Below are positions 5,990 to 56,758 of a DNA stretch of 64,000 nucleotides, piece after piece; within the stretch, counting starts at the first letter, position 1; each line of letters starts with the position of its first letter. The translations under genes and the position numbers were made by a program. This DNA comes from Ensifer sp. LC11 (GTDB lineage Bacteria > Pseudomonadota > Alphaproteobacteria > Rhizobiales > Rhizobiaceae), in NCBI RefSeq assembly GCF_001695835.1, contig NZ_MBSO01000067.1, forward strand, positions 1 through 64,000. The letters run 5' to 3'. The notes under the pieces are model-generated. The model was not told the origin of the DNA. It searched no databases and saw nothing but the letters and a program-made list of their open reading frames with translations.

Positions 5990-6865
5990 ATGCGCTATGT
6001 CCAGCTTCGCGCCTTCCACAATGTGGCCATTCACGGCGGCTTTTCACGCGCGGCGGAAGCGCTCTTCCTCACCCAGCCTGCGGTTTCCGACCAGGTGCGC
6101 AAGCTCGAGGAGGAATACGATGTCCTGCTCTTCAACCGAAACAAGAAGCAGGTAACGCTGACCCAGGCCGGCCAGCAGCTTCTGGAAGTCACCCGCCGCA
6201 TGTTCGATGTCGAACAGCAGGCGCTCGACCTGCTTTCGGAATCGCGGGCACTCAGGGCCGGAAAGCTCCGCATCGTCGCCGATGCGGCCCACCATCTGCT
6301 GCACATCCTTGCCGCCTTCCGGCGCACCTATCCAACGGTGCAGGTGTCGATCGATTCCGGCAACACCGAGACGGTCATCACAAGCCTGCACGCCTACGAG
6401 GCGGATATCGGCGTTCTCGGCGAAATCCCGCAATCGAGCGACTTCGACATACTGAAGCTCAACTCCACGCCGATCATCGCCTTTGCGAGCCGCGACTATC
6501 CACTCGCGGGCCAGAAATCGGTCACCTTCGCTGACCTCGCCAAGCATCCGCTCGTCATGCGAGAACAAGGCTCCAAGACCCGCCAGAAGCTGGAAGCGAT
6601 GGCCAAGCAATGCGGCATGCCTTTGACGCCCCTCATCGAAGCCGAAGGCCGCGAGGCCGTGCGCGAGATCGTTGCGGCCGGCGGCGGCGTCGGCTTTGTC
6701 TCCTCGGCCGAGTTCGGGCAAGACAACCGCCTCATCCCGATCGAGATCGAGGCACCCGAGATGTTGATGGACGAAGCTCTCATCTGTCTGCGTGAGCGGA
6801 GCAATGGGAAACTTGTCAGCGCCTTCTTCGAGATCGCCCGCAAGCTTGCCTCTGCCCCGACGTGA
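5990..6865 (+). CDS. LysR-family regulator of the phosphonate genes
   Basis: A 291-residue LysR-type regulator. The winged helix-turn-helix is at residues 1-60 (GGFSRAAEALFLTQPAVSDQ), followed by the linker helix and a periplasmic-binding-protein-like effector domain. It is transcribed away from the Na/Pi transporter and phnWAY, and two copies of a shared motif lie in front of those genes. It is a plausible activator responding to 2-aminoethylphosphonate or an intermediate. I see no obvious Pho box in front of phnW, which would fit substrate induction rather than phosphate starvation. The effector is unknown. Confidence 0.85.
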   Translation: MRYVQLRAFHNVAIHGGFSRAAEALFLTQPAVSDQVRKLEEEYDVLLFNRNKKQVTLTQAGQQLLEVTRRMFDVEQQALDLLSESRALRAGKLRIVADAAHHLLHILAAFRRTYPTVQVSIDSGNTETVITSLHAYEADIGVLGEIPQSSDFDILKLNSTPIIAFASRDYPLAGQKSVTFADLAKHPLVMREQGSKTRQKLEAMAKQCGMPLTPLIEAEGREAVREIVAAGGGVGFVSSAEFGQDNRLIPIEIEAPEMLMDEALICLRERSNGKLVSAFFEIARKLASAPT

Positions 6866-40886: not shown

Positions 40887-42689
40887 TCAGCCTGCGATCG
40901 GCGCAGCTCGCTCCGCAAGCCAGCTCAAGGCTTCGCTATCAAGCAAATCGTCCACCTCCTGCGCGACGCGCCGGTGATAGGCATCAACCCATTGCCGCTC
41001 AGCTTGCGTCAGCAGACCGACCTCGGCCAAGCGCATGTCCATCGGAATCAGGGTCAGACTGCGGAAGCTTAGGAAGCCGTCGCCGTCATCCACGACCTCC
41101 ACCTGGTTCTCGATGCGGATGCCGTAGGCGCCGGCCTTGTAGTAGCCGGGTTCGATCGTCGTCACCATGCCGGGTTCCAACTCGATCTCATTAACGCGGC
41201 GATCAAAGCGCTGCGGCTGTTCATGAACCGAAAGGAAATGACCGACCCCGTGGCCGGTGCCGTGATCGTAGTCGAGCCCGAGATCCCAGAGGGGGCGGCG
41301 GGCGAAGGCGTCGAGCTGGTGGCCATAGGTACCCTTGGGGAACTTGAGCGTTACCATGGAGATCAACCCCTTGAGCACCGCCGTGTAGGCGCGACGGATC
41401 TCGTCGCTGACCGGGCCGAGCGCTGTCGTGCGGGTCGCATCGGTGGTGCCGGTCAGATACTGGCCGCCGCTGTCGAGCAGATAGATCCCGCCCCTGCGGA
41501 TCGGTGCACTGCTCTCGTTCGTTGCAGCGTAGTGGCACATTGCCGCGTGGCCGTCAGCGGCCGAAATCGATCGGAAGCTCGGCTCGACAAAGCTCTCCTC
41601 CATTTGCCGGTAGCCGAGAATGCGCTCTTCCGCCTCCAGTTCGCTGACCGGCCTGCCACTCGCGTCCCGTTCGGCGGCATGACGCTCGAGCCAGGCGAAG
41701 AAGCGGATCCAGGCGGCGCCATCGAGGCGGTGGCAGTCGCGGAAACCCGCAAGCTCGGTCGCGTTCTTGTGCATTTTGGCAAGCGTGACCGGGCTTCTGG
41801 CCAGCTGCACGGTCCCGCCGGCTGCCCGCGTCGCATGGGCGGTAGCCGATGGTGCAAAGCCCGGATCGATCAGTACAGTGCGCCCCGCCGCCATCACCTT
41901 GACGCGCTCGAGCAATTGCCCAGGCTCGGCAACCGCGACGTCGTCGAGCTCGAAATCGGAGAGGTCGTTCGGCAGCTTGCGATGATCGACCAGCCATTCG
42001 GTTTTGCCGGCGCGATCGAAGAGCAGGAAGGATTGCGGCATCGGATTGAAGGCGACGTCGCGTCCGCGAACGTTGAGGAACCAGGCGACATTGTCGGGCT
42101 GCGCCTCGACGAGCACATCCGCCCCCTGCTGCGCCAACATCTCGGCGACACGTCGTTTCTTGTCGGCGACGCTTTCGCCGGAATAGGCGACGGGAAAAGC
42201 CATGATCTTGCCGAGCGGCTTTTCCGGCTGGTCGGTCCAGATCGCATCGACAAGGTCTTCGTCGACAGGTGCCCAGACGCCACCCGCCGCCTCGACCGAA
42301 CGGCCACAGTCCGTGTCCCAGGTTGACGGCAGCAGCATGGCGTTGAAACCGACGCGCTCGCCCTTGCGCAGATTGTTCTTCAGCCACGCCTTCAGCGGCG
42401 CGTCATAGAAATGCTCGATCGCAAAGGTCTCAAGATCAACCTCGTCGCGCACCTGTACCTGATAGCGGCCGTCGACGAAGATGGCGGCCCGATCGCGCAT
42501 GACGATTGCCACCCCGGCCGAACCGGTAAAACCGGTGACGAAGGCCAGCCGGTTGTCGTGCGGCGCGCAATATTCACCCTGGTGTTCGTCGAAACGCGGC
42601 ACGACGTAGCCATCGACCCCGGTCTCGGCGAGCTTGCGGCGCAAGGCGCCGATCCGGCCGGAGATATCCGGCCTCACTGTCTTTGTCAT
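40887..42689 (-). CDS. Xaa-Pro aminopeptidase (M24, PepP/AmpP-like)
   Basis: A 600-residue cytoplasmic-type aminopeptidase P that removes an N-terminal residue preceding proline. The C-terminal creatinase fold holds the metal ligands: DSGGQYLTGTTDATRT, HGTGHGVGHFLSVHE and TTIEPGYYK. Two N-terminal creatinase-like domains precede it, as in the long eukaryotic-type enzymes. ATG 42689 follows AGGAAAG; an in-frame GTG lies one codon earlier. It closes a peptide-importer operon, so the importer probably takes up proline-containing peptides. Confidence 0.93.
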   Translation of the reverse strand: MTKTVRPDISGRIGALRRKLAETGVDGYVVPRFDEHQGEYCAPHDNRLAFVTGFTGSAGVAIVMRDRAAIFVDGRYQVQVRDEVDLETFAIEHFYDAPLKAWLKNNLRKGERVGFNAMLLPSTWDTDCGRSVEAAGGVWAPVDEDLVDAIWTDQPEKPLGKIMAFPVAYSGESVADKKRRVAEMLAQQGADVLVEAQPDNVAWFLNVRGRDVAFNPMPQSFLLFDRAGKTEWLVDHRKLPNDLSDFELDDVAVAEPGQLLERVKVMAAGRTVLIDPGFAPSATAHATRAAGGTVQLARSPVTLAKMHKNATELAGFRDCHRLDGAAWIRFFAWLERHAAERDASGRPVSELEAEERILGYRQMEESFVEPSFRSISAADGHAAMCHYAATNESSAPIRRGGIYLLDSGGQYLTGTTDATRTTALGPVSDEIRRAYTAVLKGLISMVTLKFPKGTYGHQLDAFARRPLWDLGLDYDHGTGHGVGHFLSVHEQPQRFDRRVNEIELEPGMVTTIEPGYYKAGAYGIRIENQVEVVDDGDGFLSFRSLTLIPMDMRLAEVGLLTQAERQWVDAYHRRVAQEVDDLLDSEALSWLAERAAPIAG

Positions 42690-42715
42690 CACGTCTTTCC
42701 TGTTGAAATGGAGGA

Positions 42716-43729
42716 TCAGGCGCCGCCGATGGTCTCGGCGAAATGGCAGGCGGTCATGCCGGCACCGACCGGACGGAGCACTGGCTTGTCGCGGCGGCAG
42801 AGCTCGGTTGCGTGCGGGCAGCGCACGTGGAACGGGCAGCCGGGCGGAATGGCGAGCGGGCTCGGCAACTCGCCGGTCAGTGCAGGCGCGCGGCGTCTGG
42901 CGCCCGGGTCGAGCGACGGGGCCGCGGCAAGCAACCCCTTGGAATAGGGGTGCATCGGCTTCGAAAACAGCGCCTCCGACGGGCCGATCTCGACGATCGC
43001 GCCGAGATAGATGACGGCTACGCGATGCGAGACGTGGCGCACGAGGCGAAGGTCATGGGCGACAAACAACACCGTCAGCCCCAGCTCGTCCTGCAGCTCG
43101 ATCAAAAGGTTGACGACCTGCGCCTGCACCGAGACATCGAGCGCCGAAACCAGTTCGTCGGCGACGAGGCAGGTCGGCTCCAGCGACAGCGCACGGGCGA
43201 TGCCGATCCTCTGGCGTTGGCCGCCGGAGAATTCGTGCGGATACTTGTCCGCCGCCCCCTCGGGCAGCCGGACGAGATCCAAGAGCTCGTCGACCCGCAG
43301 GTCAATCGCAGCCCCTTGCCGCATGCGATGCACCGATATCGCTTCTCGCAGCGTGTCGCGCACGGTCATGCGCGGGTTGAGCGAGGTGTAGGGGTCCTGA
43401 AACATCATCTGGACCCGCCGGTTATAGGCGCGCCGCCGCGCCCCCCGGAGACCGACGACGCTTTCGCCCTCAAACAGGATATCGCCTGATGTCGGCCGGT
43501 GCAGCCCGGCGATCAGGCGTGCCAGCGTGGACTTGCCGCAGCCGGATTCTCCGACAATGCCCAGCGTCTCACCGGGCATGACGTCAAGGTCGACGCCATT
43601 GACTGCCGAAACGATCTGTTGGGGACGCCTTGCCAGCGTATCGGAGAGCGAGCGCCGCTTCTCGAAACGCATGGAGAGCGCCCGAAGCGAGAGCAAAGGC
43701 GAAGTGCTTGCTGAAGCTGGCATGGTCAT
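42716..43729 (-). CDS. Peptide ABC ATPase (DppF-type)
   Basis: A 337-residue ATPase with Walker [10 protein letters not shown], signature [15 protein letters not shown] and the C-terminal oligopeptide-transporter region with cysteines ([15 protein letters not shown]). The ATG at 43729 (MTMPASAS) overlaps the DppD stop. The Xaa-Pro aminopeptidase follows after 26 bp. Confidence 0.93.
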
Positions 43730-44739
43730 TGCGCCGCCTCCCGCGGTCTGAAATGCGTTTGCGCGTCGGCAAGATGATGACAGGCAACCTGCCGCAACAC
43801 GTCGACGCTCTGGAGCGCAGGCCTGACATTCGGGCATTCGGCACCGGCAACCGGACAGCGCGCGCTGAAAGCGCAGCCAGGCGGAAGCGCATTCAGCGCC
43901 GGCGGTGCGCCGGGGATGGAATAGAGCGGCGTGCGTGGCGCGACGTCGCGCGGGATCGAGCGCAGCAACCCCAGCGAATAGGGGTGGCGCGCATCGCCGA
44001 TGACGGCCGCCGTCGGGCCGACTTCGCAGATCCTGCCGCCGTACATGACGGCGACCCGATCGCAGGTCTCGGCGACGACGCCCATATCGTGGGTCACGAG
44101 GATCACCGCCATGCCGAGATCACGGCTCAGCGACTGGATGAGCCTGAGGATCTGGTCCTGGATCGTGACATCAAGCGCTGTCGTTGGCTCGTCCGCCAGC
44201 AGCAGTTTTGGATTGGAGGCAAGCGCGATCGCGATCATCACCCGCTGGCGCATGCCGCCGGAGAACTCGTGCGGGAAATCATCGAGGCGATTGCGCGCTG
44301 CAGGGATGCCGACCAACTCGAGGAGTTCAATCGCCCGCGCCTTTCTCGCTCTGGCATCGAGATCCGTATGCGCCACCAGGTTTTCCGATATCTGCAGCCC
44401 GACTGACAGCAGCGGATTGAGCGACGACATCGGCTCCTGGAAAATCATCGCGATCTCCCGGCCGCGGATGCGCCGGAGCTGTGCCTCGGAAAGCGTAACG
44501 AGATCCCGTCCGTTCCAGCGGATTTCACCAGCAACGCGCCCGCGTGGGCGGACAATGCCGAGGATCGAACGAAGCGTGATGCTCTTGCCCGAACCGGACT
44601 CGCCGACGAGACCGAGGATCTCGCCCGCCGCAACCTGGAACGAGACATCGTCGACCGCAACCAGTGGCCGTTCGCGCGGACCGAACTCCGTTCGAAGGTG
44701 CCTGACGTCGAGCACGACGGGTTTTTCCTGTGTTCCCAT
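43726..44739 (-). CDS. Peptide ABC ATPase (DppD-type)
   Basis: A 337-residue ATPase: Walker [10 protein letters not shown], signature [15 protein letters not shown], Walker [13 protein letters not shown], and the cysteine-bearing tail [15 protein letters not shown] that in this family can carry an iron-sulfur cluster. The ATG at 44739 (MGTQEKPV) lies one base after the permease stop, so the frame extending further upstream is not used. Confidence 0.93.
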
Positions 44740-44740
44740 T

Positions 44741-45610
44741 TCAGCGCCCCTTCGGTCGAAGCAAGTCGGCAAGCGCATCGCCGACGAGGCTGAAGCCAAG
44801 CCCGGTCAGCACGATGGCGATGCCCGGCATCAGGCTCATCCACCAGGCCGTCATCAGGAAGTTGCGGCCTTCGGCGATCAGCACCCCCCATTCGGCGGCC
44901 GGCGGCTGGGCGCCGAGGCCGAGATAGCCGAGCGAAGAGCCGAGCAGGATCGCAAGCGCCATGTCCGTCATCCAGTAGACGAGGATTGGCGAGATCGCGT
45001 TCGGCAGCAGGTGGCGGAAGATGATGCGACGATCCGAGTAACCGAGCACCCGGCCGGCGGCCGCATAGTCGCTGGCCTTCTGCGTCATGATTTCGGCGCG
45101 CGTCAGCCGGGCGTAGTAGACCCAGTTCACCGCAGTGATCGCCACATACATGTTGACAAGGCCAGGCCCGAGCACCGCGACGATGGCAATGACCAGGACC
45201 AGAAAGGGAAAGGTGATGATCGCATCGACGCAGCGGCCGAAGATCACGTCGGCAATGCCGCCGTAATAGCCCACGAAAGCGCCGACAGTGAGCCCGATCA
45301 ACAGCGCGAAGATCGTCGCGAAGAAGGCCATCTGCATGTCGACCCGGTAGGCCCAGATGACCCGAGACAGCACGTCACGGCCGAAATTGTCGGTACCGAA
45401 GGGATGGGTGAGGCTCGGCCCCTGCTGCATCGCCTGGAGGTCGAAGGCGAGTGGATCATAAGGCGCGAAGACCTGCGGGAACAGAGCAAGCGCCAGCGAC
45501 AGGCCGAGGATGGTAACACCGACAACAAAGGATGGGCGAGCGAAGGCGCGTGCCAGGAATCCAGCAAGCCGCCCCCGCGTCCGCGAATGGGATTGGGTGA
45601 TGGCACTCAT
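44741..45610 (-). CDS. Peptide ABC permease (DppC-type)
   Basis: A 289-residue permease. LTHPFGTDNFGRDVLSRVIWAYR and the C-terminal SSLGYLGLGAQPPAAEWGVL are hallmark regions. The ATG overlaps the DppB stop as ATGA. Confidence 0.93.
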   Translation of the reverse strand: MSAITQSHSRTRGRLAGFLARAFARPSFVVGVTILGLSLALALFPQVFAPYDPLAFDLQAMQQGPSLTHPFGTDNFGRDVLSRVIWAYRVDMQMAFFATIFALLIGLTVGAFVGYYGGIADVIFGRCVDAIITFPFLVLVIAIVAVLGPGLVNMYVAITAVNWVYYARLTRAEIMTQKASDYAAAGRVLGYSDRRIIFRHLLPNAISPILVYWMTDMALAILLGSSLGYLGLGAQPPAAEWGVLIAEGRNFLMTAWWMSLMPGIAIVLTGLGFSLVGDALADLLRPKGR

Positions 45611-46548
45611 GACTGGCGAAGCCTCGGATCGAGCCAGGATTGAACGACGTCCGTCAGCAGGAAGACGACGGAGACGAGCACGGCGAAGGTGAGCGTCAGT
45701 CCCTGGATCAGCGGATAGTCGCGGGCAAAGATCGCCTCCAGCATCAGCCGGCCGACGCCGGGAATGGCAAAGACAGTTTCCGTCACCAGCGTGCCGCTCA
45801 TCAGGTTGCCGATCGACAAGCCGAGCAGCGTGACAGTCGAAACCAGCGCGTTGCGCAGCACGTGCCGGGTCATGATGATCCGCGGCGAAAGCCCCTTGGC
45901 GCGGGCGAACTGCACATAATCGGCGTCGAGCACCTCGATCAGCGAGGCGCGCAGATTGCGCAGGATGATCGCCGACGTATAGAGCGCGACGCTGAGCGCC
46001 GGCAGGATCAGGTGATAAAGATTGGCAAGAAAGGTCTTGCCGTAGCCGCCGACCGGAAACCAGCGCAGTTGTGCGGCCAGCACCGTCAAAAGGACCAGGC
46101 CGATATAGAAAACCGGCATCGAGAGGCCCACCTGGAAGACACCGCGGATAGCGACGTCGACGGGACTGTTGACCCGCGACGCAGCAAGGAACGCAAGCGG
46201 CCCCGCAAGCAAGACAGCGAGCACAACCGAATAGAGTGCAAGAAAGATCGTCGTCGGCAGGCGACTGAGAATGATGTCGGTCACCGGCGCCTTGAGCATG
46301 ATCGAGCGGCCGAGATCGCCCGTCAGCGTGTTCTTGACGAAGACGAGGAATTGCACCGGCAGCGGCTGATCGAGACCAAGATTGTGCCGGATCTGCTCAA
46401 GCTGGGCGTCGGTCGCCTTGGCCTCGGCCATGGCTATCGCCGGATCGCCCGGCAAAAGGCGCACGAGCAGGAAGATGAAGATCATCACCAACAGAAACGT
46501 CGGGATGATCTGCAGCAGCCGCGCCACGAGATAGGAAAGTGAGGGCAT
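45607..46548 (-). CDS. Peptide ABC permease (DppB-type)
   Basis: A 313-residue permease; the LPGDPAIAMAEAKATDAQLE region near residue 30 and SGTLVTETVFAIPGVGRLML mark the DppB group. I start at ATG 46548 (MPSLSYLV); an in-frame ATG five codons earlier is possible. A hairpin lies between it and the binding-protein gene. Confidence 0.92.
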   Translation of the reverse strand: MPSLSYLVARLLQIIPTFLLVMIFIFLLVRLLPGDPAIAMAEAKATDAQLEQIRHNLGLDQPLPVQFLVFVKNTLTGDLGRSIMLKAPVTDIILSRLPTTIFLALYSVVLAVLLAGPLAFLAASRVNSPVDVAIRGVFQVGLSMPVFYIGLVLLTVLAAQLRWFPVGGYGKTFLANLYHLILPALSVALYTSAIILRNLRASLIEVLDADYVQFARAKGLSPRIIMTRHVLRNALVSTVTLLGLSIGNLMSGTLVTETVFAIPGVGRLMLEAIFARDYPLIQGLTLTFAVLVSVVFLLTDVVQSWLDPRLRQS

Positions 46549-46565
46549 GGTTCCAACCTTCAACG

Positions 46566-46611: not shown

Positions 46612-48189
46612 TCAGTCGGCGCGCCAGGCTTCAGAGAAGTCGTTGGCACCGAGCGGCGTCTGCACGTAACCCTCGATCGACTTCGAAACGGCGACGGCGA
46701 AGGGCGTCTCGAACAGGAAGAGCAGCGGCGCTTCCGCCGCATAGATCTCCTGCATGCGCTTGTACTCGTCCTTGCGCTTGGCCGGATCGGTCTCGACGTT
46801 GGAGGCTTCGAACAGCGTGTTGAATTCCTGGTTGTTCCAGCCGGTGCCGACGGCCTGGCGCTGCTTGTAGTAGCCGAGCCAGCCGGTCACCTGCGCCGGG
46901 TCGTTGACGTCGTTTGCCCAGCCATAGGTGTGGATGTCGAAGTCGCCGGAGCGGTTCTTTTCGCCTCGGGTCGGGTTGTCGACCTGCTCGACCTTGAGGT
47001 TGACGCCGAGCGGCGCCCACATCTGCTGAAGGGCCGTAAACAGCGTCGCGTCGTCGGCGCTGCCGGCAAGCGTGGTGAAGTTCACGTCGAAGCCGCCACT
47101 GAGACCGGCATCAGCCAGTAACTGCCTGGCCTTCTCCGGGTCGTACGGGTAGAGCGGCGCGGGGCCGTAGTGAAGCTGTGTCGCCGCCGACATCAACGAG
47201 GTCATCGGCTTGCCGGTGTCGAAGGTGACGAGCTTGATCAGCACGTTCTTGTCGGTCGCGTAGTTCAGCGCCTGGCGGACCTTGGCGTCGGCAAGCGGAT
47301 TCTTCGCGCCATCCTTCTTCGTCTCGCGCGTATTGATCGGCGCGTAGACGATGCGGGTCGAGGGGAAGAGCTCCATCTTCAGGTTCGGATCGGCGCCCAA
47401 CTCGCCGACGCGGGCAAACGGAATGAACTCGGCCGCGTCGACTTCGCCGGCCTGAAGCTTGAGAATACGGGTGGCATCATCGGGAATGACGAGGAACTCC
47501 ACTCGGTCGAGATAAGGCAGCGGCTTGCCGTCTTCGCCCTGGCGCCAGTAGTTGGGATTGCGCTCGAAGCTCATGCTCGACCCCTGCTCGTGGCTCTTCA
47601 TGACGAAGGGACCCGAGGTCACAGGGCCGGCGGCGAAGAAGGCGCGCGCCTTCTCCTGGTCCGTGCTACCTGCCGCCTTCTCGAAGGCCGCCTTCGGCAT
47701 GATGCCGGTGTTGAAGGTCGCAAGGATCGAAATGATGGTGGGGTCGGGGTTCTTCAGCGAAACGGTGATCTTGTTGCCGTCGGCACTGACCTTGTCGACC
47801 GCACCGAGCAGGCCTGCCCAGGGGCCGAGGTCGGTGTTTCGCGCCCTGTCGAGTGAGAAGACGACGTCAGCGCCGGTCAACTCCGAGTCGTCGGAAAACT
47901 TGAGACCGCTCCTCAGTGTCAGGGTGATGGTCTTGCCGTCAGCGGAAACCTCATGGGCCTCGGCAAGGCCCGGCACGATCGAGCCATCAGGACCGTTGCG
48001 CAGCAGCGTTTCGTAGAGGCCATTCACCATCCAGAGATCGGGGTTGCGGTCCGCATAAACGGGGTCGATGACGGTCGAGTCGTCGTAGCGTGCGAATGTC
48101 ATCGCACCGCCGCGTTCGATCGCGAAAGCCGAGGTGGCCGCAAGCAGCCCAAGCGTCGCGCCGAGCATGATAGGCAATATACGTTTCAT
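46612..48189 (-). CDS. Peptide ABC substrate-binding protein (SBP family 5)
   Basis: A 525-residue periplasmic protein with a signal peptide (KRILPIMLGATLGLLAATSA, cut near FAIERGG). Family 5 features include the DSTVIDPVYADRNPDLWMVN start and VDNPTRGEKNRSGDFDIHTY. AAAAGGAGG precedes ATG 48189. It leads the operon SBP-dppB-dppC-dppD-dppF-pepP. A palindromic ATTGGATCCAAT site sits 60 bp upstream of its start and is shared with the hydroxyproline-epimerase gene. Confidence 0.92.
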   Translation of the reverse strand: MKRILPIMLGATLGLLAATSAFAIERGGAMTFARYDDSTVIDPVYADRNPDLWMVNGLYETLLRNGPDGSIVPGLAEAHEVSADGKTITLTLRSGLKFSDDSELTGADVVFSLDRARNTDLGPWAGLLGAVDKVSADGNKITVSLKNPDPTIISILATFNTGIMPKAAFEKAAGSTDQEKARAFFAAGPVTSGPFVMKSHEQGSSMSFERNPNYWRQGEDGKPLPYLDRVEFLVIPDDATRILKLQAGEVDAAEFIPFARVGELGADPNLKMELFPSTRIVYAPINTRETKKDGAKNPLADAKVRQALNYATDKNVLIKLVTFDTGKPMTSLMSAATQLHYGPAPLYPYDPEKARQLLADAGLSGGFDVNFTTLAGSADDATLFTALQQMWAPLGVNLKVEQVDNPTRGEKNRSGDFDIHTYGWANDVNDPAQVTGWLGYYKQRQAVGTGWNNQEFNTLFEASNVETDPAKRKDEYKRMQEIYAAEAPLLFLFETPFAVAVSKSIEGYVQTPLGANDFSEAWRAD

Positions 48190-48248
48190 CTCACTCCTCC
48201 TTTTGACCGCAGCCAGCATCGATCGCGCGCCGAACACGTTTATTGGAT

Positions 48249-48260
48249 ATTGGATCCAAT
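48249..48260 (-). promoter_or_regulatory. ATTGGATCCAAT palindrome upstream of the peptide importer operon
   Basis: A perfect 12-bp palindrome, preceded by an extra direct half-site TATTGGAT at 48241-48248. The same core occurs at 50257-50268 between the proline-racemase-family gene and the GntR gene. The sequence type (short palindrome with central GATC) suits a GntR/FCD dimer. Confidence 0.6.
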
Positions 48261-48363
48261 CTTTCTTAGTGTTTTTCGCCGCCGACGGATTGCCGTGAAG
48301 ACGTTCTTGTAGTTCCCCTTTTGAAAGAAGGCCGGCGTCCGATCTGATCGGCTTGCCGAACCA

Positions 48364-48382
48364 ACTTTAGCTGGACTAAAGT
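48364..48382 (+). promoter_or_regulatory. Palindrome upstream of the XRE-cupin gene
   Basis: ACTTTAG and CTAAAGT are perfect 7-bp inverted arms around CTGGA, ending 35 bp before the regulator's ATG. It is a candidate autoregulatory operator of the XRE-cupin protein and is distinct from the GntR-type site 104 bp away in the same spacer. Confidence 0.5.
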
Positions 48383-48417
48383 ACATCGATAGACGTGAGT
48401 CAAGCGGAAAGAAAATC

Positions 48418-49038
48418 ATGCCCCTGAAGATCAAAGAGGCGCCGCAAGCTGCCGAAGGCGCCTCCCTCCCCGAAGCCGTGGCGACCGCCTCGCTCGGCCA
48501 GATGCTGCGCGCGCGCCGCAAGGAAATCGGCAAGACCATGAAGGACGTTGCGCGCGAAGCCGGTTTGACGGAAGGCTTCATCAGCCAGATCGAGCGCGGC
48601 ATTTCCACCCCGTCGCTGATCTCGCTTTACAACGTCGCCAACGCGCTCGGCACCAGCGTCGACACCTTCCTGTCGCAGCCGCCGCAGCATGGACATTCGA
48701 TGGTCTCGCATGCCGGTGAGCGGCCAGGATACAATGTCGAGACCAAGGAGCGCGTCTACGAACTGATCGAGCGTGGCTTCCCGGGTGCGACGCTCAATGG
48801 CTGCATCACCCATATGCCCAAGGGCTACGCATCGGAACTGACGAGCCACGAAGGCGAGGACTTTCTCTACCTGATCGAGGGCGAAATGCTCTACGAAATC
48901 GACGGCAAGGAGTATCTGCTGAAGGCCGGCGACACGCTGCACTTCCCGGCGGCGCTGCCGCACCGCGCCCGCAATGTCGGCGCGGGGCCGGCCCGCGAAC
49001 TCTGGGTCGGCACGACCAGGATCATCAAAGAAGACTGA
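48418..49038 (+). CDS. XRE-type regulator with C-terminal cupin domain
   Basis: A 206-residue regulator with the helix-turn-helix at about residues 20-78 (MKDVAREAGLTEGFISQIER) and the cupin at about 120-200 (SELTSHEGEDFLYLIEGEML and LKAGDTLHFPAALPHRARN). It is divergent from the peptide importer operon. Proteins of this type often control amino-acid or polyamine catabolism. GGAAAG precedes the ATG. Confidence 0.9.
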   Translation: MPLKIKEAPQAAEGASLPEAVATASLGQMLRARRKEIGKTMKDVAREAGLTEGFISQIERGISTPSLISLYNVANALGTSVDTFLSQPPQHGHSMVSHAGERPGYNVETKERVYELIERGFPGATLNGCITHMPKGYASELTSHEGEDFLYLIEGEMLYEIDGKEYLLKAGDTLHFPAALPHRARNVGAGPARELWVGTTRIIKED

Positions 49039-49095
49039 GCCAGCCGGCCAAAACGCAGCGTCCGGGCCGCACAAGGCAGCCCGGATAATGACGCC

Positions 49096-50127
49096 TTACT
49101 GCTTGCGCGGCCAAGTATCGGCAAGCCGGTAGCCGGCCGGCCACGGATCCGCCGGATCGAGCATCACCTGATGGGTGCCAGTGATCCAGGCGCGGCCGGA
49201 AATCTCAGGAATGATCGCTGGCCGTCCGGCAACAGTGGTTTCGCCGGCGATCCGGCAGTCAAACGTCGAATCGATGATGGAATGGCCGCTGAAGCGCTGG
49301 CCGACCTTCATCACGCCGCGCGCATGCAGCACCGCCATGCGTGCCGAGCAGCCGGTGCCGGTCGGCGAACGGTCGAGCTTGGCCGGCTGGATAACGACCG
49401 TGTTGCGGCCGTGCAGGACACCGTCCTTCTCCTCGACAGGCAGCGTGAGCTGGCAGAAGGAAATGTGGTTCCACTCGGGGTTTTCCGGATGGGTGAAACC
49501 GAGCTGTTCATTGGCCGCGCGGGTAATCTTGATGCCGGTTTCGGCAAGCTCGCGCGCCTCGTCCGGCGTCACCGAAAAGCCAAGCGTGCGCGCGTCGGTG
49601 ATGACGAAGCTGTCGCCGCCATAGGCGGTGTCGACCGTGAGCGTGCCCAGCCCCTCGACTTCGAGCTTGGCATCGAGCTTGTCGGCAAAGGACGGCACGT
49701 TGGTCACCGTAATGCGCTCGGCCTTGCCGTTGCGGCACTGCGCGACGACGTTGACCAGCCCGCCCGGTGCTTCGAGCACCATGCGTGTTTCCGGTTCCTG
49801 CATCGGCACGATGCCGCTGTCGAGAAGTACGGTCGAAACGCAGATGGAGTTGGAACCGGACATCGGCGGCGTATCTTCGGGTTCCATGATGATGAAGCCC
49901 ATCGTCGCGCGCGGATCCTTCGGCGGCACGAGCAGGTTGATGTGGCGGAAGACACCGCCGCGCGGCTCGTTGAGCACGAAATTGCGCAGCGTCTGGTCTT
50001 CGGCGATGAAGCGGCGCTGTTCCCAGAGCGTGTTTCCGGGCGGCGGCGCAACGCCACCGACGATGACGTCGCCGACTTCCCCCTCCGCGTGGCAGGAAAC
50101 GATGTGGACGACCTTGTTGCTGCGCAT
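49096..50127 (-). CDS. Proline-racemase-family enzyme, probable hydroxyproline epimerase
   Basis: A 343-residue enzyme of the proline racemase fold. The second catalytic cysteine is present ([11 protein letters not shown]), while the first catalytic position is serine ([10 protein letters not shown]) instead of the MCGH-type cysteine. A Ser/Cys pair is known among hydroxyproline 2-epimerases, whereas true proline racemases use Cys/Cys. The ATG at 50127 (MRSNKVVH) follows AAGGAGAG. It is divergent from a GntR regulator with a perfect palindrome between them, and lies close to a proline-peptide uptake operon carrying the same site. Confidence 0.85.
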
Positions 50128-50254
50128 GCCTCTCTCCTTCCAAGCGGTGGACGGGTGCCACCTCAGGCGACCGATGCCCTGCGCATTGGCCGTACTCCCG
50201 CTTTTGCCAGGATGATACGCGACGGCGCTGAACCCGGCGAAAACACTCATAGAA

Positions 50255-50270
50255 ATATTGGATCCAATAT
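50255..50270. promoter_or_regulatory. 16-bp perfect palindrome between the epimerase and gntR genes
   Basis: ATATTGGATCCAATAT is a perfect 16-bp palindrome, 128 bp upstream of the epimerase ATG and 147 bp upstream of the GntR ATG. Its 12-bp core repeats at 48249-48260. It is the best candidate binding site of the adjacent GntR/FCD protein. The rest of the 289-bp spacer shows no gene. Confidence 0.65.
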
Positions 50271-50416
50271 ACAATCTGAAATATTCGAAATCCCGCCCGA
50301 GACCACAGGGTTCTGTTGCCCGCGGTCCGGAATGGACCTATGACCATGGACCAACAGCGCCAAAACGCTTCCGAATTCGCCGAGCCAGAAGGCTTTGCCA
50401 GCAGGATTTGAACACG

Positions 50417-51082
50417 ATGAAACTCGAGGCCGTGGACGTCAGGCAATCTGCCTCAGCCGCCGATATCGTCTATGAAGCGCTGCGCAAGGCGATCATCGAA
50501 GGCGATCTCGCCGAGGGCGAGAACCTGCGACAGGACCACATCGCGCAAATGTTCAACACCAGCCGCATCCCGGTGCGCGAAGCGCTTTCCCGTCTCGAAC
50601 AGCACGGCCTGATCACGACCGAGCGCTACAAGGGCGCCGTCGTCGCCGGCCTCTCCATCGAGGAGATCGAAGAGATCTTCGAGTTTCGTGCCCTGATCGA
50701 GGCCGAGGTCATTCGCCTTGCGGTGCCCAATCTCGACCGCCGCACGCTCGACCTTGCACGCCGGCATTGCGAGGCGTTCGAGCAAGAAGAGAACGCCGAC
50801 CACTGGGGCGAGATCAACCGCAATTTCCACTACAGCCTCTATGAGGGCGCGCGCCGACCCTACTATCTGCAAATCGTCCGCGCCTCGCTCGACCGCATCG
50901 ACCGCTACCTCAGGGCGCAGCTGACGCTGACATCGGGCATTGCCCGCGCACGCCGCGAGCACAAGGCGATCCTCGATGCTTGCATTGCCCGCGACGCCGA
51001 GCGCGCCAGTGCGCTGACGCGCGACCACATCATAGATGCCGGCCGCTCGCTGATCGTCTTCCTCAGGGAACAGAGAGCCTAG
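50417..51082 (+). CDS. GntR-family regulator (FCD subfamily)
   Basis: A 221-residue regulator. The GntR winged helix spans about residues 15-75 (QDHIAQMFNTSRIPVREALS) and the helical FCD effector domain follows (EEIFEFRALIEAEVIRLAV, HREHKAILDACIARD-type region). I start at ATG 50417 (MKLEAVDV); the open frame upstream runs through the operator and is unlikely to be coding. It is divergent from the hydroxyproline-epimerase-like gene and is its probable regulator. Confidence 0.9.
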   Translation: MKLEAVDVRQSASAADIVYEALRKAIIEGDLAEGENLRQDHIAQMFNTSRIPVREALSRLEQHGLITTERYKGAVVAGLSIEEIEEIFEFRALIEAEVIRLAVPNLDRRTLDLARRHCEAFEQEENADHWGEINRNFHYSLYEGARRPYYLQIVRASLDRIDRYLRAQLTLTSGIARARREHKAILDACIARDAERASALTRDHIIDAGRSLIVFLREQRA

Positions 51083-51231: not shown

Positions 51232-51293
51232 AGCGCCCCCGGAAGCCTGAAAAGTGGGGCCCCTATCGAGACCGGCAGCGTTGGGAGGACTTG

Positions 51294-54200
51294 ATGTCTG
51301 TGCGCGCGTTTTTCGGCCTTTCCACCCTCCTTTTGTCCCTTCTGACCGCGGGAAACCCCGCCGCTGCTCAGGAGACCGGCCGCCAGGTCGAGATAACGAA
51401 GGATGGCGACTATTTCGGCTTCGATCTCAGGACCGAGCAAAACGTCTCGCTCGACGAATGCCAGCAGACCTGTATCGCCGATCAGTCCTGCCGCGCTTTC
51501 ACCTACAATCCCAAGGTGAAGTGGTGCTTCCTCAAGTCCGACTATAATCAGTTGAACGCCTTCCCAGGCGCCATTGCCGGCAAGGTCGTACAGCCGCAGG
51601 CAGCCGCAGCCGACATCGGCGCGCCGCCGCGCCTGAAGTTCCTGTCGGACCAGATCCTGCAGGACGCCCGCAACACCAAGGCCAATCTCGCGCTTGCCGA
51701 CGACCAGCAGGGCCTGGGCGTCAATACGCTGATCGACATGGCGCGCGGCCAGGCCGGCCTGGGCAATATCGAGAATGCGCTGAAGGCCTTCCAGGGCGCG
51801 CTGGCGGTGACGCCCGATGAAGCCGAGCTTTGGCTGGAAGCGGCGCGTACGGCAAACCGCATCACCAACAATTCGGCCGTGTCGATGCAAGCAGCGATCG
51901 CCGCGATCAACGGCTACGAGCTGACCCGCACGGCCGAAAGCCGGGCGCATGCGCTCGCCGTTATGGCAAAATCGCTCGAAGGCGCTGAAAACTACCGCGC
52001 CGCATTGGACGCCTACAAGGCGAGCCTGGAATTGGTGAAGGCGAAGTCGGCCGAGGCCGCCTATCTCGATCTTAAGCAGCGCAAGGGTTTCCGCGTCGTC
52101 GAGCATACGATCGATTCCGACGCTGCGACGCCGCGCGCCTGCGTGCAGTTTTCCGAACAGCTCTTGAAGAGTGGCGCTGACTATGCCTCTTTCGTCACCG
52201 TCAACGGCGCAGCACCCAAGGCGCTCGAAGCCAAAGGCGATCAGATCTGCGTCGAGGGCCTTTCGCATGGCGAGCGTTACAAACTGACGCTTCGCACCGG
52301 CCTGCCCTCCACTGTCGACGAAGTGCTGGAGGCGCCGGTCAATCTCGACATCTATGTCGCCGACCGCGCCCAGATGGTGCGTTTCACCGGTGACAGCTTC
52401 GTGCTGCCGTCGACCGCGCGCCGCGGGATCCCGCTCGTGTCGGTCAACACCGATAGCGCCAAACTCAAACTCTATCGCGTCGGCGACCGCAGCATCGCCC
52501 AGGTGCTGCAGAGCTCGCAGTTCCTCACCCAGCTCGACGGCTACAGTGCCCAGCGCATCGAAGATGAAAGCGGCGAACTCGTCTGGCAGGGCACGATCGA
52601 CATCGAGCGCGACGTCAACAAGGAGGTCGTCACCAGCTTCCCGGTCGATGAAGCGCTGCCGGAGCGTAAGCCCGGCGTCTACGTTCTGACGGCGGCGCCG
52701 ACCACCGGTATCAGCCAGGAGTGGGATGCGCGCGCGACGCAATGGTTCGTCGTCTCCGATATCGGCCTTTCCACCTATGCCGGCACGGACGGGCTGAACG
52801 TCTTCGTGCGCTCGCTTGCGTCGGCCGAGCCGATTGAAGGCGTCGAACTGCAGCTCGTCGCCAAGAACAACGAGATCCTGGGTACGGCGACCAGCGATGG
52901 CGATGGCCGTGTCACCTTCACGGCGGGCCTGATCCGCGGCACGGCGGGACTGACCCCCGCGGTCATCACCGCCAGGAAGGGTGAAGACGACTACGTCTTC
53001 CTCGACATGAGCCGTGCCGGCTTCGATCTGTCCGATCGCGGCGTCACCGGTCGCGCGGCCCCCGGCGCCATCGACATTCTCGCCTGGACCGAGCGCGGCA
53101 TCTATCGCGCCGGCGAAACAGTGCATGCGGCAGCGCTTGCCCGCGACGTCGACGGCATGGCGATCGAGAACCTGCCGCTGACCTTCGTTTTCCTCCGGCC
53201 CGATGGGGTCGAGTATCGCCGAATGACCAGCGCCGGCGGCAAGCTCGGCGGCCATACACTCGATCTCGACGTTCAGGCCAACGCCATGCGCGGCACCTGG
53301 ACGATGCAGATCTTCACCGATCCGAAATCTCCTGCCATCGGCGAGAAGCAGTTCCTCGTCGATGATTTCGTGCCCGATCGCACCGAATTCGACCTGACCA
53401 GCGACGCCAAGGAAATCGCCGTTGGCGAGGCGGCGAGCGTGGCCGTTGACGGACGTTATCTCTATGGCGCGCCAGCCGCCGGTCTCGAGCTCGAAGGCGA
53501 AGTGGCCATCAAGCCGACGCGCGAGAACGCCGCCTTCAAGGGCTATTCCTTCGGCCTTGCAGACGAAGAGGCGAGCGAAGACACGCGCCTGCCGCTTGAG
53601 GAGCTTTCGGCGCTCGACGAGGAAGGCAAGTCCACGTTCGACGTCTTCATCGACGAAGTGCCCTCGACCACACAGCTGCTCGACGCCACCGTCACCGTCC
53701 GCATGCGGGAAGCCGGCGGCCGCGCTGTCGAGCGCTCACTGAAGCTACCGGTGCGCGCCGAAGGCCCGATGCTCGGCATCAAGCCGGAGTTCGAAGGCGA
53801 ACTTGCCGAAAACTCGATTGGCAAGTTCCGCGTCATCGCCGTCGATCCGGACGGCAGCAAGACCGCCATGCCCGGCCTCCTGTGGAAGCTGATCAGCGTC
53901 GAACGCAATTATCACTGGTACCGCGACGGCAGTGCCTGGAAGTATGAGCCTGTCGTCACCACCAAGCAGGTGGCAAACGGCAGCGTCGACCTGACCGAAG
54001 ATGGCGGCGAGATCGCCGTGCCTGTCGGCTGGGGGCGCTACCGCCTGGAGGTCGAGACGGCCTCGATCGACGGCCCGACCTCCAGCGTCGAATTCGATGC
54101 CGGCTGGTATGTCGCCGCCACCTCGACGGAAACGCCCGATGGCCTGGAGATCGCGCTCGACAAGGAGAAATACGCGGTCGGCGATACGGCCAAGCTGAAG

Positions 54201-56750
54201 GTTTCGCCGCGGTTTGCCGGTGAACTGCTGGTAACCGTCGGCACCGAAAACCTGATCACGACCCAGACAGCGTCGATTGCCGCCGAAGGCGGCGAGGTCG
54301 AGCTGCCGGTGACCGAAGCCTGGGGCGCCGGCGCCTATGTCACAGCCACGCTCTATCGGCCTGGCGATGCCCAGGAAAGCCGCATGCCCATGCGCTCGAT
54401 CGGCATCAAGTGGCTTTCGGTCGACCCGGCCGAGCGCAAACTCGCCGTCACACTGAACGCTCCGGAGAAAATGGAGCCGCGCGGCGCTCTCGACATCGGC
54501 CTTCAGGTCGCCGGTGCTGGTGCCAACGAGGAAGCCTATGTGACGCTCGCAGCCGTCGACGTCGGCATCCTCAATCTCACCGGTTACGAGGCGCCGGATC
54601 CGGAAGCCTGGTATTTCGGCCAGAGGCAGCTCGGGCTTGAGATCCGCGACCTCTATGGCCGCCTGATCGATAGCTCGCTTGGCGCTACCGGAAAACTGCG
54701 CACCGGCGGCGACGGCGGCCAGGTGGCGCTCCAGGGCAGCCCGCCCACGGAAAAGCTCGTTGCCTTCTTCGAGGGGCCAGTGCAGCTCGACGGTGACGGC
54801 AAGGCGACCGTCAGCTTCGACATCCCGCAATTCAACGGCACGGCGCGGCTGATGGCCGTCGCCTGGACGAAATCCGGTGTCGGCCACGCCACGCGCGACG
54901 TGGTGATCCGCGACCCGGTGGTCGTCACCGCCAGCCTGCCGCGGTTCCTGGCGCCCGGAGACCGGTCCGAGCTGAGGCTCGATATCGCCAATACCGACGC
55001 GCCGGCGGGTGACTACCAGATCCACGTAACGACCAGCGGACCTGCAACGGTCGAACAACCCGGCACGGGCAACACGGTAACCCTGGACCAGGGCGGTCGC
55101 ACCTCGATAACCTTGCCGGTGGTCGGGCAATATCCCGGAAACGGTGTCGTCACGGTCGCACTGACGGGCGCCAACGGCCTTTCGCTGGAGCAGTCGCTCG
55201 ATATGCTCGTGCGTCCGGCAACCTTGCCGATCACGCAGCGGCAGGTCGTTGCGATCGCGCCCGGAAGCAGCCTTACGGTCGATGGGCAGTTGCTCGCCGA
55301 CAGCATCCTGCAGGGCGCATCGGTCAATCTCAGCGTCACGCGCGCGGCTGCCTTCGACATGCCGGCGCTGCTGATGACGCTCGATCGCTACCCCTATGGG
55401 TGCGCCGAGCAGACGACGAGCCGGGCGCTGCCGCTGCTCTATTTGAGCGAACTTGCGAAGCAATCCGGTCTCGCCGACGATGAGGGCGTGACCAAGCGCG
55501 TGCAGGAGGCTGTCTATCGCGTGCTCTCCTACCAGTCATCGTCCGGCAGCTTCGGCCTGTGGGGCCCCGGCTATGGCGATCTCTGGCTCGACGCCTATGT
55601 CACCGACTTCCTGACCCGCGCCCGCGAGCAGAAATACGACGTGCCTGAGGCTGCCATGGTCCAAGCGCTGGAAAACCTGCAGAACGGCGTCGGCTACGAC
55701 ACCAATGTCAAGGACCGCGGCAACGAGATCGCTTACGGGCTCTACGTGCTCGCGCGCAACCGCAAGGCGGCGATCAACGATCTGCGTTACTACGCCAACA
55801 CGGCGATCAATGACTTCCCGACACCGCTCGCCAAGGCCCATATTGCCGCGGCTCTGGCGCTCTATGGCGATGCACAGGGGTCGCAGGATACCTTTGCCAA
55901 GGCGGCCAACATGTCGACCGGCCTCGTCAATGTCAGCCTGTCGCGCTCCGATTACGGTTCGTCCCTGCGCGACAACGCCGCCGTACTGGTGCTTGCCGCT
56001 GAAAGCCGTCCGGTCCCGCCGATCGTTCCGGAACTGTCAAAGATCGTCGCGCGTGAATGGGAACAGAAGACCTACACCAGCACCCAGGAACAGGCCTGGA
56101 TGCTGCTAGCCGCCCGTGCCATTCAGAACGGCGATGAAGACATGGCGCTGGACGTCAACGGCGCATCGAAGACCGGCAGCTATGCGGCCCAGATGACCGG
56201 CGACGCGCTCGTGACCCATCCGGTCGTAATCCGCAATCAGGGCGCCGATCCGGTTTCGGCTGTCGTCACCAGCGTCGCCGCCCCGGCTCAACCGCTTTCG
56301 GCCGGCGGCGACGGTTTTACCATAGAGCGTACCTACTATACGCTCGACGGCGCCGAGGCCAACGTCATGGAGGCACGCCAGAACGAGCGCTACGTCGTTG
56401 TGCTCAAGATGACGGAGACCAACGACTGGCCGTCGCGCGTGCTGGTGACAGACCTGCTGCCGGCCGGATTCCAGATCGACAATCCGAGCCTCGTTGACAG
56501 CGCTCAGTTGACGAATTTCGAATGGCTCGGCGAAATCACCGCGACCCATTCGGAGTTCCGCAACGACCGCTTCGTCGCGGCGATCGACCGGAGCACCGGT
56601 GCCGCCCGGGATGTGACCCTCGCCTATGTGGTGCGTGCCGTCACCCCTGGTGTCTACGACCATCCGGCTGCCACGGTCGAGGATATGTACCGGCCGCAAC
56701 TGTCGGCTCGCACCGCCACCGGGCGCATGGAGGTGCTCGCTGCGCAATAG
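51294..56750 (+). CDS. Bacterial alpha-2-macroglobulin with N-terminal PAN-like domain
   Basis: A 1818-residue secreted or periplasmic protease trap. A signal peptide (residues 1-26, ending GNPAAAQ) is of the ordinary type; I see no lipobox. Next come a PAN/apple-like cysteine domain (about 30-95, DECQQTCIADQSCRAFTYN) and a TPR-like helical part (about 120-235), then macroglobulin domains. The thioester motif GCAEQTTSR, with Cys near residue 1370, is intact, within an alpha-toroid TED region (about 1340-1600). A GGGAGG site precedes the ATG. pbpC follows after 8 bp, the classic pairing. Confidence 0.92.
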   Translation: MSVRAFFGLSTLLLSLLTAGNPAAAQETGRQVEITKDGDYFGFDLRTEQNVSLDECQQTCIADQSCRAFTYNPKVKWCFLKSDYNQLNAFPGAIAGKVVQPQAAAADIGAPPRLKFLSDQILQDARNTKANLALADDQQGLGVNTLIDMARGQAGLGNIENALKAFQGALAVTPDEAELWLEAARTANRITNNSAVSMQAAIAAINGYELTRTAESRAHALAVMAKSLEGAENYRAALDAYKASLELVKAKSAEAAYLDLKQRKGFRVVEHTIDSDAATPRACVQFSEQLLKSGADYASFVTVNGAAPKALEAKGDQICVEGLSHGERYKLTLRTGLPSTVDEVLEAPVNLDIYVADRAQMVRFTGDSFVLPSTARRGIPLVSVNTDSAKLKLYRVGDRSIAQVLQSSQFLTQLDGYSAQRIEDESGELVWQGTIDIERDVNKEVVTSFPVDEALPERKPGVYVLTAAPTTGISQEWDARATQWFVVSDIGLSTYAGTDGLNVFVRSLASAEPIEGVELQLVAKNNEILGTATSDGDGRVTFTAGLIRGTAGLTPAVITARKGEDDYVFLDMSRAGFDLSDRGVTGRAAPGAIDILAWTERGIYRAGETVHAAALARDVDGMAIENLPLTFVFLRPDGVEYRRMTSAGGKLGGHTLDLDVQANAMRGTWTMQIFTDPKSPAIGEKQFLVDDFVPDRTEFDLTSDAKEIAVGEAASVAVDGRYLYGAPAAGLELEGEVAIKPTRENAAFKGYSFGLADEEASEDTRLPLEELSALDEEGKSTFDVFIDEVPSTTQLLDATVTVRMREAGGRAVERSLKLPVRAEGPMLGIKPEFEGELAENSIGKFRVIAVDPDGSKTAMPGLLWKLISVERNYHWYRDGSAWKYEPVVTTKQVANGSVDLTEDGGEIAVPVGWGRYRLEVETASIDGPTSSVEFDAGWYVAATSTETPDGLEIALDKEKYAVGDTAKLKVSPRFAGELLVTVGTENLITTQTASIAAEGGEVELPVTEAWGAGAYVTATLYRPGDAQESRMPMRSIGIKWLSVDPAERKLAVTLNAPEKMEPRGALDIGLQVAGAGANEEAYVTLAAVDVGILNLTGYEAPDPEAWYFGQRQLGLEIRDLYGRLIDSSLGATGKLRTGGDGGQVALQGSPPTEKLVAFFEGPVQLDGDGKATVSFDIPQFNGTARLMAVAWTKSGVGHATRDVVIRDPVVVTASLPRFLAPGDRSELRLDIANTDAPAGDYQIHVTTSGPATVEQPGTGNTVTLDQGGRTSITLPVVGQYPGNGVVTVALTGANGLSLEQSLDMLVRPATLPITQRQVVAIAPGSSLTVDGQLLADSILQGASVNLSVTRAAAFDMPALLMTLDRYPYGCAEQTTSRALPLLYLSELAKQSGLADDEGVTKRVQEAVYRVLSYQSSSGSFGLWGPGYGDLWLDAYVTDFLTRAREQKYDVPEAAMVQALENLQNGVGYDTNVKDRGNEIAYGLYVLARNRKAAINDLRYYANTAINDFPTPLAKAHIAAALALYGDAQGSQDTFAKAANMSTGLVNVSLSRSDYGSSLRDNAAVLVLAAESRPVPPIVPELSKIVAREWEQKTYTSTQEQAWMLLAARAIQNGDEDMALDVNGASKTGSYAAQMTGDALVTHPVVIRNQGADPVSAVVTSVAAPAQPLSAGGDGFTIERTYYTLDGAEANVMEARQNERYVVVLKMTETNDWPSRVLVTDLLPAGFQIDNPSLVDSAQLTNFEWLGEITATHSEFRNDRFVAAIDRSTGAARDVTLAYVVRAVTPGVYDHPAATVEDMYRPQLSARTATGRMEVLAAQ

Positions 56751-56758
56751 GCTAGATC

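Follow-up and report, generated by a model that had tools for sequence, protein, structure and literature searches.

Why should two intergenic regions of Ensifer sp. LC11, 2 kb apart, carry the same perfect 12-bp palindrome, and which protein would bind it there? The question arises in a 64,000-nucleotide stretch of DNA (positions 1 to 64,000 of contig NZ_MBSO01000067.1; hereafter the window). One copy of the palindrome ATTGGATCCAAT precedes a peptide importer-pepP operon, and the other lies between a gene of the proline-racemase family, predicted here to encode a trans-3-hydroxyproline dehydratase, and a gntR gene whose product we call GntR2. A second regulator gene, of XRE-cupin type, stands between the two copies. 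Judging from sequence and its conservation, it is quite probable that both copies are operators of GntR2, through which the importer-pepP operon and the dehydratase gene would be controlled jointly, and that GntR2 is a repressor likely to be released by a hydroxyproline-type ligand. Taken overall, this is very probably a real, if fairly conventional, gene circuit.

As read from the letters, operator A occupies positions 48242-48260 of the forward strand and consists of the half-site ATTGGAT (48242-48248) abutting the palindrome (48249-48260). Operator B (50257-50275, forward strand), between the dehydratase gene and gntR, begins with the palindrome (50257-50268), which abuts the half-site ATACAAT (50269-50275). 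An extended form of site B, the 16-bp palindrome ATATTGGATCCAATAT, spans positions 50255-50270; as a 10-mer, the operator reads TTGGATCCAA. An earlier note on this DNA had described the two perfect 12-mers, the 16-bp form and the half-site of site A, all of which were confirmed; the half-site of site B is an addition to it. The same tripartite layout is seen at both operators when A is read on the forward strand (ATTGGAT followed directly by ATTGGATCCAAT) and B on the reverse strand (ATTGTAT followed directly by ATTGGATCCAAT), with the direct half-site 9.5 nt from the palindrome centre in each case. From site A it is 60 bp to the ATG of the importer binding-protein gene (48189) and 157 bp to the XRE-cupin gene; from site B it is 130 bp to the dehydratase ATG (50127) and 148 bp to that of gntR (50417), each site being upstream of both genes. 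GntR palindromes have been described with extra half-sites at a distance of 7-12 nt from their centre, which form weaker boxes (PMC4494728); the box described here falls within that distance, but is nearly constant across the 70 sites compared below.

The palindrome is rare. Many random genomic copies, which the earlier note had named as grounds for doubting a shared regulon, are not present: there are two exact copies in the whole 6.2-Mb genome, both in the window and 2.0 kb apart. That note had also expected further copies before other hydroxyproline genes, and no exact one occurs in the genome. Three other places differ from the 12-mer by one mismatch, namely C21:52039 (within an apparent coding sequence, as judged by eye), C32:29247 (within an open reading frame, ORF) and C56:126756 (60 bp upstream of an ORF and about 19 kb from hypR, a second gntR-type gene considered below); no hydroxyproline gene was recognised beside any of them in the stretches inspected. 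When three mismatches are allowed, the 16-mer is found at 9 places in the genome, compared with 4 for a backwards control, and these include C6:14309 (2 mismatches). Within the window alone, the two matches obtained at up to two mismatches are unremarkable, as 42 of 100 shuffles reach two. What makes the pair significant is therefore not the window count but the exactness of both copies, together with the genome count and conservation.

Conservation within the genus was assessed in 16 Ensifer genomes (this one and 15 others, about 114 Mb by rounded sizes). The exact 12-mer was present in all 16, with 30 of its 31 copies at this locus. Two genomes (G013 and G015) hold one exact copy each because their site A differs by one base. 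The sole exact copy elsewhere (G014:C1:2650958, L150:4958-4969) lies in a 10-kb stretch in which no homologues of the window or hydroxyproline-cluster query genes were found. Alignments of the intergenic DNA from 15 genomes (this one and 14 others, G014 being left out) placed the longest invariant run of region A, TTGGATATTGGATCC (15 nt), in operator A, the next longest being an 11-nt run in a palindrome before the XRE-cupin gene. The longest run of region B, ATTGGATCCAATATACAAT (19 nt), is operator B, and the next is 6 nt. The dehydratase-importer block of G014 lies about 27 kb from gntR with both operators kept alongside it, and at three loci (L059, L060 and L061) site B has remained beside the dehydratase gene, with an insertion parting it from gntR; thus, the sites follow their target genes. 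Splits of gntR from its neighbour, with the operators remaining beside the target genes, were seen at L149 (G014; about 27 kb) and, by about 0.75-5.7 kb of extra DNA, at L039/L059, L040, L042/L060 and L046/L061.

A wider comparison used the best 80 of 414 stretches encoding a GntR2 relative in named genomes (53-95% identical). This set partly overlaps the Ensifer set and is drawn from related species, so that the counts measure conservation and not 80 independent events. Within 300 bp upstream of gntR, the site was exact at 40 of the 80 loci, carried one mismatch at a further 20 and two at another 10, giving 70 in total. At up to one mismatch it was present at 60 of 80, against at most 1 of 80 for any of 89 control palindromes with the same letter composition. 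The third half-site was almost as stable as the palindrome, the commonest base at positions 13, 15, 16, 17 and 18 occurring in 67, 67, 67, 66 and 68 of the 70 sites, with its C, A, A and T kept in 67, 67, 66 and 68. Site A was found at all 15 loci that bear the importer (10 exact, 2 with one mismatch and 3, from Aminobacter, with two), and at all of these 15 the dehydratase gene is preceded by the site as well (12 exact, 2 with one mismatch and 1 with two). Outside the 80-locus set, the site stands beside the gntR of further relatives at 58% (one mismatch), 51% (exact) and 41% identity (one mismatch); beside two other gntR relatives (41% and 35% identity) it was absent at up to one mismatch. 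A chance repeat, or conservation through common descent alone, would agree with the ordinary count of window matches at up to two mismatches and with the relatedness of the loci compared. Chance is nevertheless rejected by the genome count, the 16-genome count and the 80-locus controls, and neither chance nor descent sits well with an exact pair that is unique in the genome, with invariant runs that are the longest in otherwise diverged intergenic DNA, or with a site conserved in far relatives. We give this explanation next to no likelihood.

The position of the XRE-cupin gene (48418-49038, forward strand; Pfam HTH_3 and Cupin_2), between the two operators and divergent from the importer, would suit a protein that itself binds ATTGGATCCAAT. 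However, neither an XRE-cupin homologue nor the importer was seen at 65 of the 80 loci, of which 58 still have the site (up to two mismatches). The gene is moreover preceded by a conserved palindrome of its own, ACTTTAG-N5-CTAAAGT (48364-48382, forward strand, 35 nt before the gene). The XRE-cupin protein was rejected as the binder of ATTGGATCCAAT on these two grounds, and we regard that role as most improbable. Its own palindrome has one exact copy in the genome, and the arms are conserved across all 15 Ensifer rows and the three Aminobacter loci read, making it the likely operator of the XRE-cupin regulator itself, which is probably a second, separate input. A 9-nt run, GTTCCCCTT (48312-48320), between operator A and this palindrome is also invariant in the 15 Ensifer genomes.

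The proposed binder of both operators is the 221-aa product of gntR (50417-51082, forward strand). Its matches to the Pfam families GntR (59.9 bits) and FCD (87 bits), both above cut-off, assign GntR2 to the FadR subfamily of GntR/FCD regulators. His138, His182 and His204 are invariant in an eight-row GntR alignment, and probably form the FCD metal site. A His trio is given for the FCD metal site of Streptomyces HypR (PMC6608401). Such a site in GntR2 would fit a carboxylate ligand.

From the sites and their gene neighbourhoods, we infer the following course of regulation. A GntR2 dimer would bind ATTGGATCCAAT, and a further subunit or dimer would probably touch the direct half-site ATTG(G/T)AT abutting the palindrome at both operators. 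At site B, GntR2 would control the divergent dehydratase gene together with its own gene, and at site A the peptide ABC importer-pepP operon. As with known hydroxyproline regulators of the GntR family, its most likely role would be that of a repressor released by a hydroxyproline-type ligand, with peptide uptake, cleavage at Xaa-Pro and trans-3-hydroxy-L-proline dehydration being induced together. Alternatively, GntR2 could activate one of the units, for instance the importer, whose operator has its extra half-site on the gene side. FadR-subfamily proteins are able to do both, and activation of a transporter promoter has been suggested for Streptomyces HypR (PMC6608401). Site B, on the other hand, is divergent and next to GntR2's own gene, and HypR of Sinorhizobium meliloti is described as a negative regulator (PMC5343134), which leaves activation improbable and repression by GntR2 the preferred reading.

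The genome also encodes a HypR-type GntR of its own, at the head of a 4-hydroxyproline (hyp) cluster on another contig. This cluster resembles that of S. meliloti (L146), and the GntR proteins of the two, labelled HypR by their position beside a hyp cluster, are 80.5% identical. The motif TTGTCGACAA flanks hypR in this genome (L140:5780-5789 and 6529-6538) and precedes it in S. meliloti (L146:28256-28265), and is thus a candidate HypR operator. The possibility that GntR2 is itself HypR was rejected: the two are about 30% identical, belong to separate clades and have different operators (TTGGATCCAA versus TTGTCGACAA). In a tree of 40 chosen rows, 23 GntR2 sequences formed one clade (100/100) and five HypR sequences another (100/99); the GntR2 clade is clear, whereas that of HypR sits on a very long stem and drew a long-branch warning from the program. 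GntR2 and HypR genes stand side by side at 13 of the 80 loci.

The window system resembles the HypR regulons (S. meliloti hyp; PMC5343134) in having a regulator of the GntR/FadR subfamily beside its targets and in its control of hydroxyproline enzymes, as well as in an operator with a 2-nt centre (PMC4494728). It differs in that GntR2 adjoins a trans-3-hydroxyproline dehydratase gene and an ABC peptide importer, not a hyp cluster. HypR of Streptomyces coelicolor is likewise an FCD-type GntR, which represses hydroxyproline genes and a putative collagenase gene, but its motif is the weakly symmetric CTNTGC(A/C)ATGTCAC (PMC6608401). Peptidases and permeases have already been predicted in hydroxyproline GntR regulons: in Alteromonadales and Aeromonas, that of HypR is predicted to include a peptide permease as well as prolidases/AmpP (PMC5343134). 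The apparent novelty here lies in a GntR lineage that stands apart from HypR, has an operator of its own and is tied to a trans-3-hydroxyproline enzyme. A search by title and opening of the abstract, whose coverage did not extend to the published alphaproteobacterial HypR motifs or to membership of the group 'HypR', found no study of this regulator or operator among the papers listed.

The neighbourhoods of the 80 gntR genes were sorted over about 10 kb on each side, less at some loci, with identity thresholds of at least 30% for epimerase, 45% for D-amino-acid oxidase, and 60% for both HypR and dehydratase. At 34 loci, among them Ancylobacter, Nitratireductor, Maritalea and Rhodobacteraceae, GntR2 is accompanied by homologues of both 4-hydroxyproline epimerase and D-amino-acid oxidase and by no HypR, and a further 12 have part of this epimerase/oxidase set. 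The dehydratase-GntR2 pair adjoins a HypR-led hyp cluster at 13 loci (Rhizobium, Pararhizobium, Shinella and other Rhizobiales) and the importer-pepP genes at 15 (ten Ensifer, three Aminobacter and two Shinella). The remaining six have none of these gene sets, although three of them have the dehydratase gene, which is present at 60 of the 80 loci overall. These neighbourhoods, in particular the 34 with both enzymes, lend support to the hydroxyproline role put forward in the earlier note, and the conservation of the sites argues strongly for the shared GntR operator by which that note had linked the importer-pepP operon to the racemase-family gene and gntR.

The hydroxyproline-epimerase label that the earlier note had given to the racemase-family gene was not borne out. 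Its 343-aa product (49096-50127, reverse strand) is assigned to trans-3-hydroxyproline dehydratase by the NCBIfam model NF047722 (659.6 bits, cut-off 550) and has Ser90 and Thr256 as its catalytic pair; a second dehydratase model, NF045511, scored below its cut-off (211.4 versus 540). The label 4-hydroxyproline epimerase was rejected as NF010578 (214.2, cut-off 376), NF052296 (170.3, cut-off 450) and NF010577 (86.3, cut-off 442) all fell short, and it fails on the residues too, since the reference epimerases have Cys/Cys, or Ser/Cys in one known group (PMC4113996). The dehydratase B9K4G4 carries the same Ser/Thr pair, and likeness to the known counterpart is full-length (576.9 bits, residues 1-340) with the same Ser90 and Thr256 numbering (PMC4113996); here, by comparison with that study, the activity is a prediction and the enzyme is encoded by a single gene tied by its operator to a peptide importer. 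The nearest solved structures are 4k8l, 1tm0 and 4k7g. Among 66 aligned pieces of dehydratase homologues (at least 60% identity) from the 80 loci, 53 have Ser/Thr and 7 have Ser/Cys, with 6 not covering both positions; the Ser/Cys pieces suggest a switch of activity among close homologues.

Pyrroline-2-carboxylate, the expected product, would need an enzyme encoded at another locus for its reduction to proline; a plausible candidate is the Ldh_2 protein of the separate hyp cluster, the single match to that family in the genome. Reduction of proline ketimine is an activity of Ldh_2-superfamily members (PMC4113996), so use of trans-3-hydroxyproline may require the hyp cluster. In S. meliloti LMB1, the hyp cluster itself includes a gene for a dehydratase of this NF047722 family (642.8 bits). 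A third gene of the proline-racemase superfamily in the LC11 genome (L142:9464-10498, C2) is 44% identical to that of the window, and its product fell under the cut-off of all six NCBIfam models listed for it.

The operon that follows site A is encoded entirely on the reverse strand. It begins with the family-5 binding protein (46612-48189; Pfam SBP_bac_5, 301.9 bits), which has a purine-rich, AGGAGG-like stretch before its ATG, and continues with permeases of Dpp/OppB (45607-46563) and Dpp/OppC type (44741-45610) and ATPases of Dpp/OppD (43726-44799) and Dpp/OppF type (42716-43837), all identified by family scans; the OppB-, OppD- and OppF-type starts were assigned mechanically. Next comes pepP (40887-42692), encoding a 601-aa Xaa-Pro aminopeptidase of the long M24 form, with catalytic, creatinase N-terminal and M24 C-terminal domains (Pfam Creatinase_N, Creatinase_N_2, Peptidase_M24 and Peptidase_M24_C). 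PepP matches 3ctz (Xaa-Pro aminopeptidase 1) over residues 25-600 (E 1.6e-101) and is near full-length to 4s2r as well. The binding protein is distant from solved ones, its best match being 7kz8 (E 6.8e-71), and no literature was found on AapF, the name of that nearest solved protein. Directly 3' of gntR, window positions 51291-58840 hold a 1819-aa ORF and then a second ORF, an arrangement seen in 15 of 15 same-genus genomes; we presume the first to be alpha-2-macroglobulin-like and the next to be penicillin-binding-protein-like (PbpC).

The sites could belong to GntR2 and yet serve another end, the importer and PepP handling general proline (or other) peptides, with hydroxyproline incidental and proline, pyrroline-2-carboxylate or a peptide as the ligand. 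The distance of the binding protein from solved ones would be compatible with this, as would the Pfam scan of 10 window proteins, which found no collagenase, and the 4-hydroxyproline cluster of the same genome, which contains no exact copy of the window operator. We consider it somewhat unlikely, as the dehydratase gene has the operator too and the 34 loci with epimerase and oxidase homologues also speak for hydroxyproline. Under the preferred reading of a hydroxyproline-responsive GntR2, collagen-type peptides are a possible source; plant cell-wall glycoprotein, which the earlier note had favoured alongside them, found no support in this analysis.

Several observations weigh against joint control by GntR2 and a hydroxyproline role. 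Ten of the 80 loci lack the site (up to two mismatches) over the 300 bp preceding gntR. At L059, L060 and L061 it has been displaced along with the dehydratase gene; a one-mismatch copy lies farther upstream at L096, L104, L105 and L138 and downstream at L133, and L106 and L135 are without a copy at up to one mismatch. Site A of Aminobacter has TT in place of the central GG (ATTTTATCCAAT), with the outer TTGGAT and ATCCAA retained, and the compact palindrome is therefore not universal. The site is missing in G024, where the neighbour of a 75% identical dehydratase gene is a gntR whose product is 41% identical; the enzyme can thus also occur next to another GntR type, and 20 of the 80 loci show no dehydratase homologue of at least 60% identity in the stretch examined. 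The operator has a 2-nt centre with arms TTGG/CCAA where the published FadR-subfamily consensus is TKGT/ACMA with a centre of 2-3 nt (PMC4494728); a right half of ACAA is found in 6 of the 70 sites. A simple sigma-70 scan placed one promoter-like match close to the start of the importer but found none overlapping the operators. The protein cluster of the enzyme (cluster 3) is reported as mixed in activity, some members reportedly being epimerase-active, and 4K8L, its closest solved relative, is listed among the epimerases (PMC4113996).

The variety of neighbourhoods suggests a history that we hold with about as much confidence as doubt. GntR2 would be an old regulator of hydroxyproline use in the Alphaproteobacteria, separate from HypR. 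In the Rhizobiaceae, the 4-hydroxyproline pathway would have passed to HypR while GntR2 kept only the trans-3-hydroxyproline dehydratase, an order of events that we infer; Ensifer, Aminobacter and some Shinella would then have gained the importer and Xaa-Pro aminopeptidase through a copied three-half-site operator, leaving two paralogous GntR proteins to split the hydroxyprolines between them. At L133 (Jhaorihella), one of the six loci with none of the gene sets, gntR2 is followed by the one-mismatch site and then by genes for a binding protein, an M24 peptidase and ABC components. These importer and peptidase genes are 26-49% identical to those of the window (binding protein 26%; peptidase 31% over 207 columns), low values from which it follows that at least two forms of the combination of peptide uptake with an M24 peptidase have come under this operator.

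The locus thus offers a testable regulator-operator pair for the use of trans-3-hydroxyproline and peptides in soil bacteria, and sets GntR2 apart from the well-known HypR system of the same genome. It points to the transfer of a regulon between paralogous GntR proteins, and its nearly constant third half-site makes it a good case for how FCD regulators use three-box operators.

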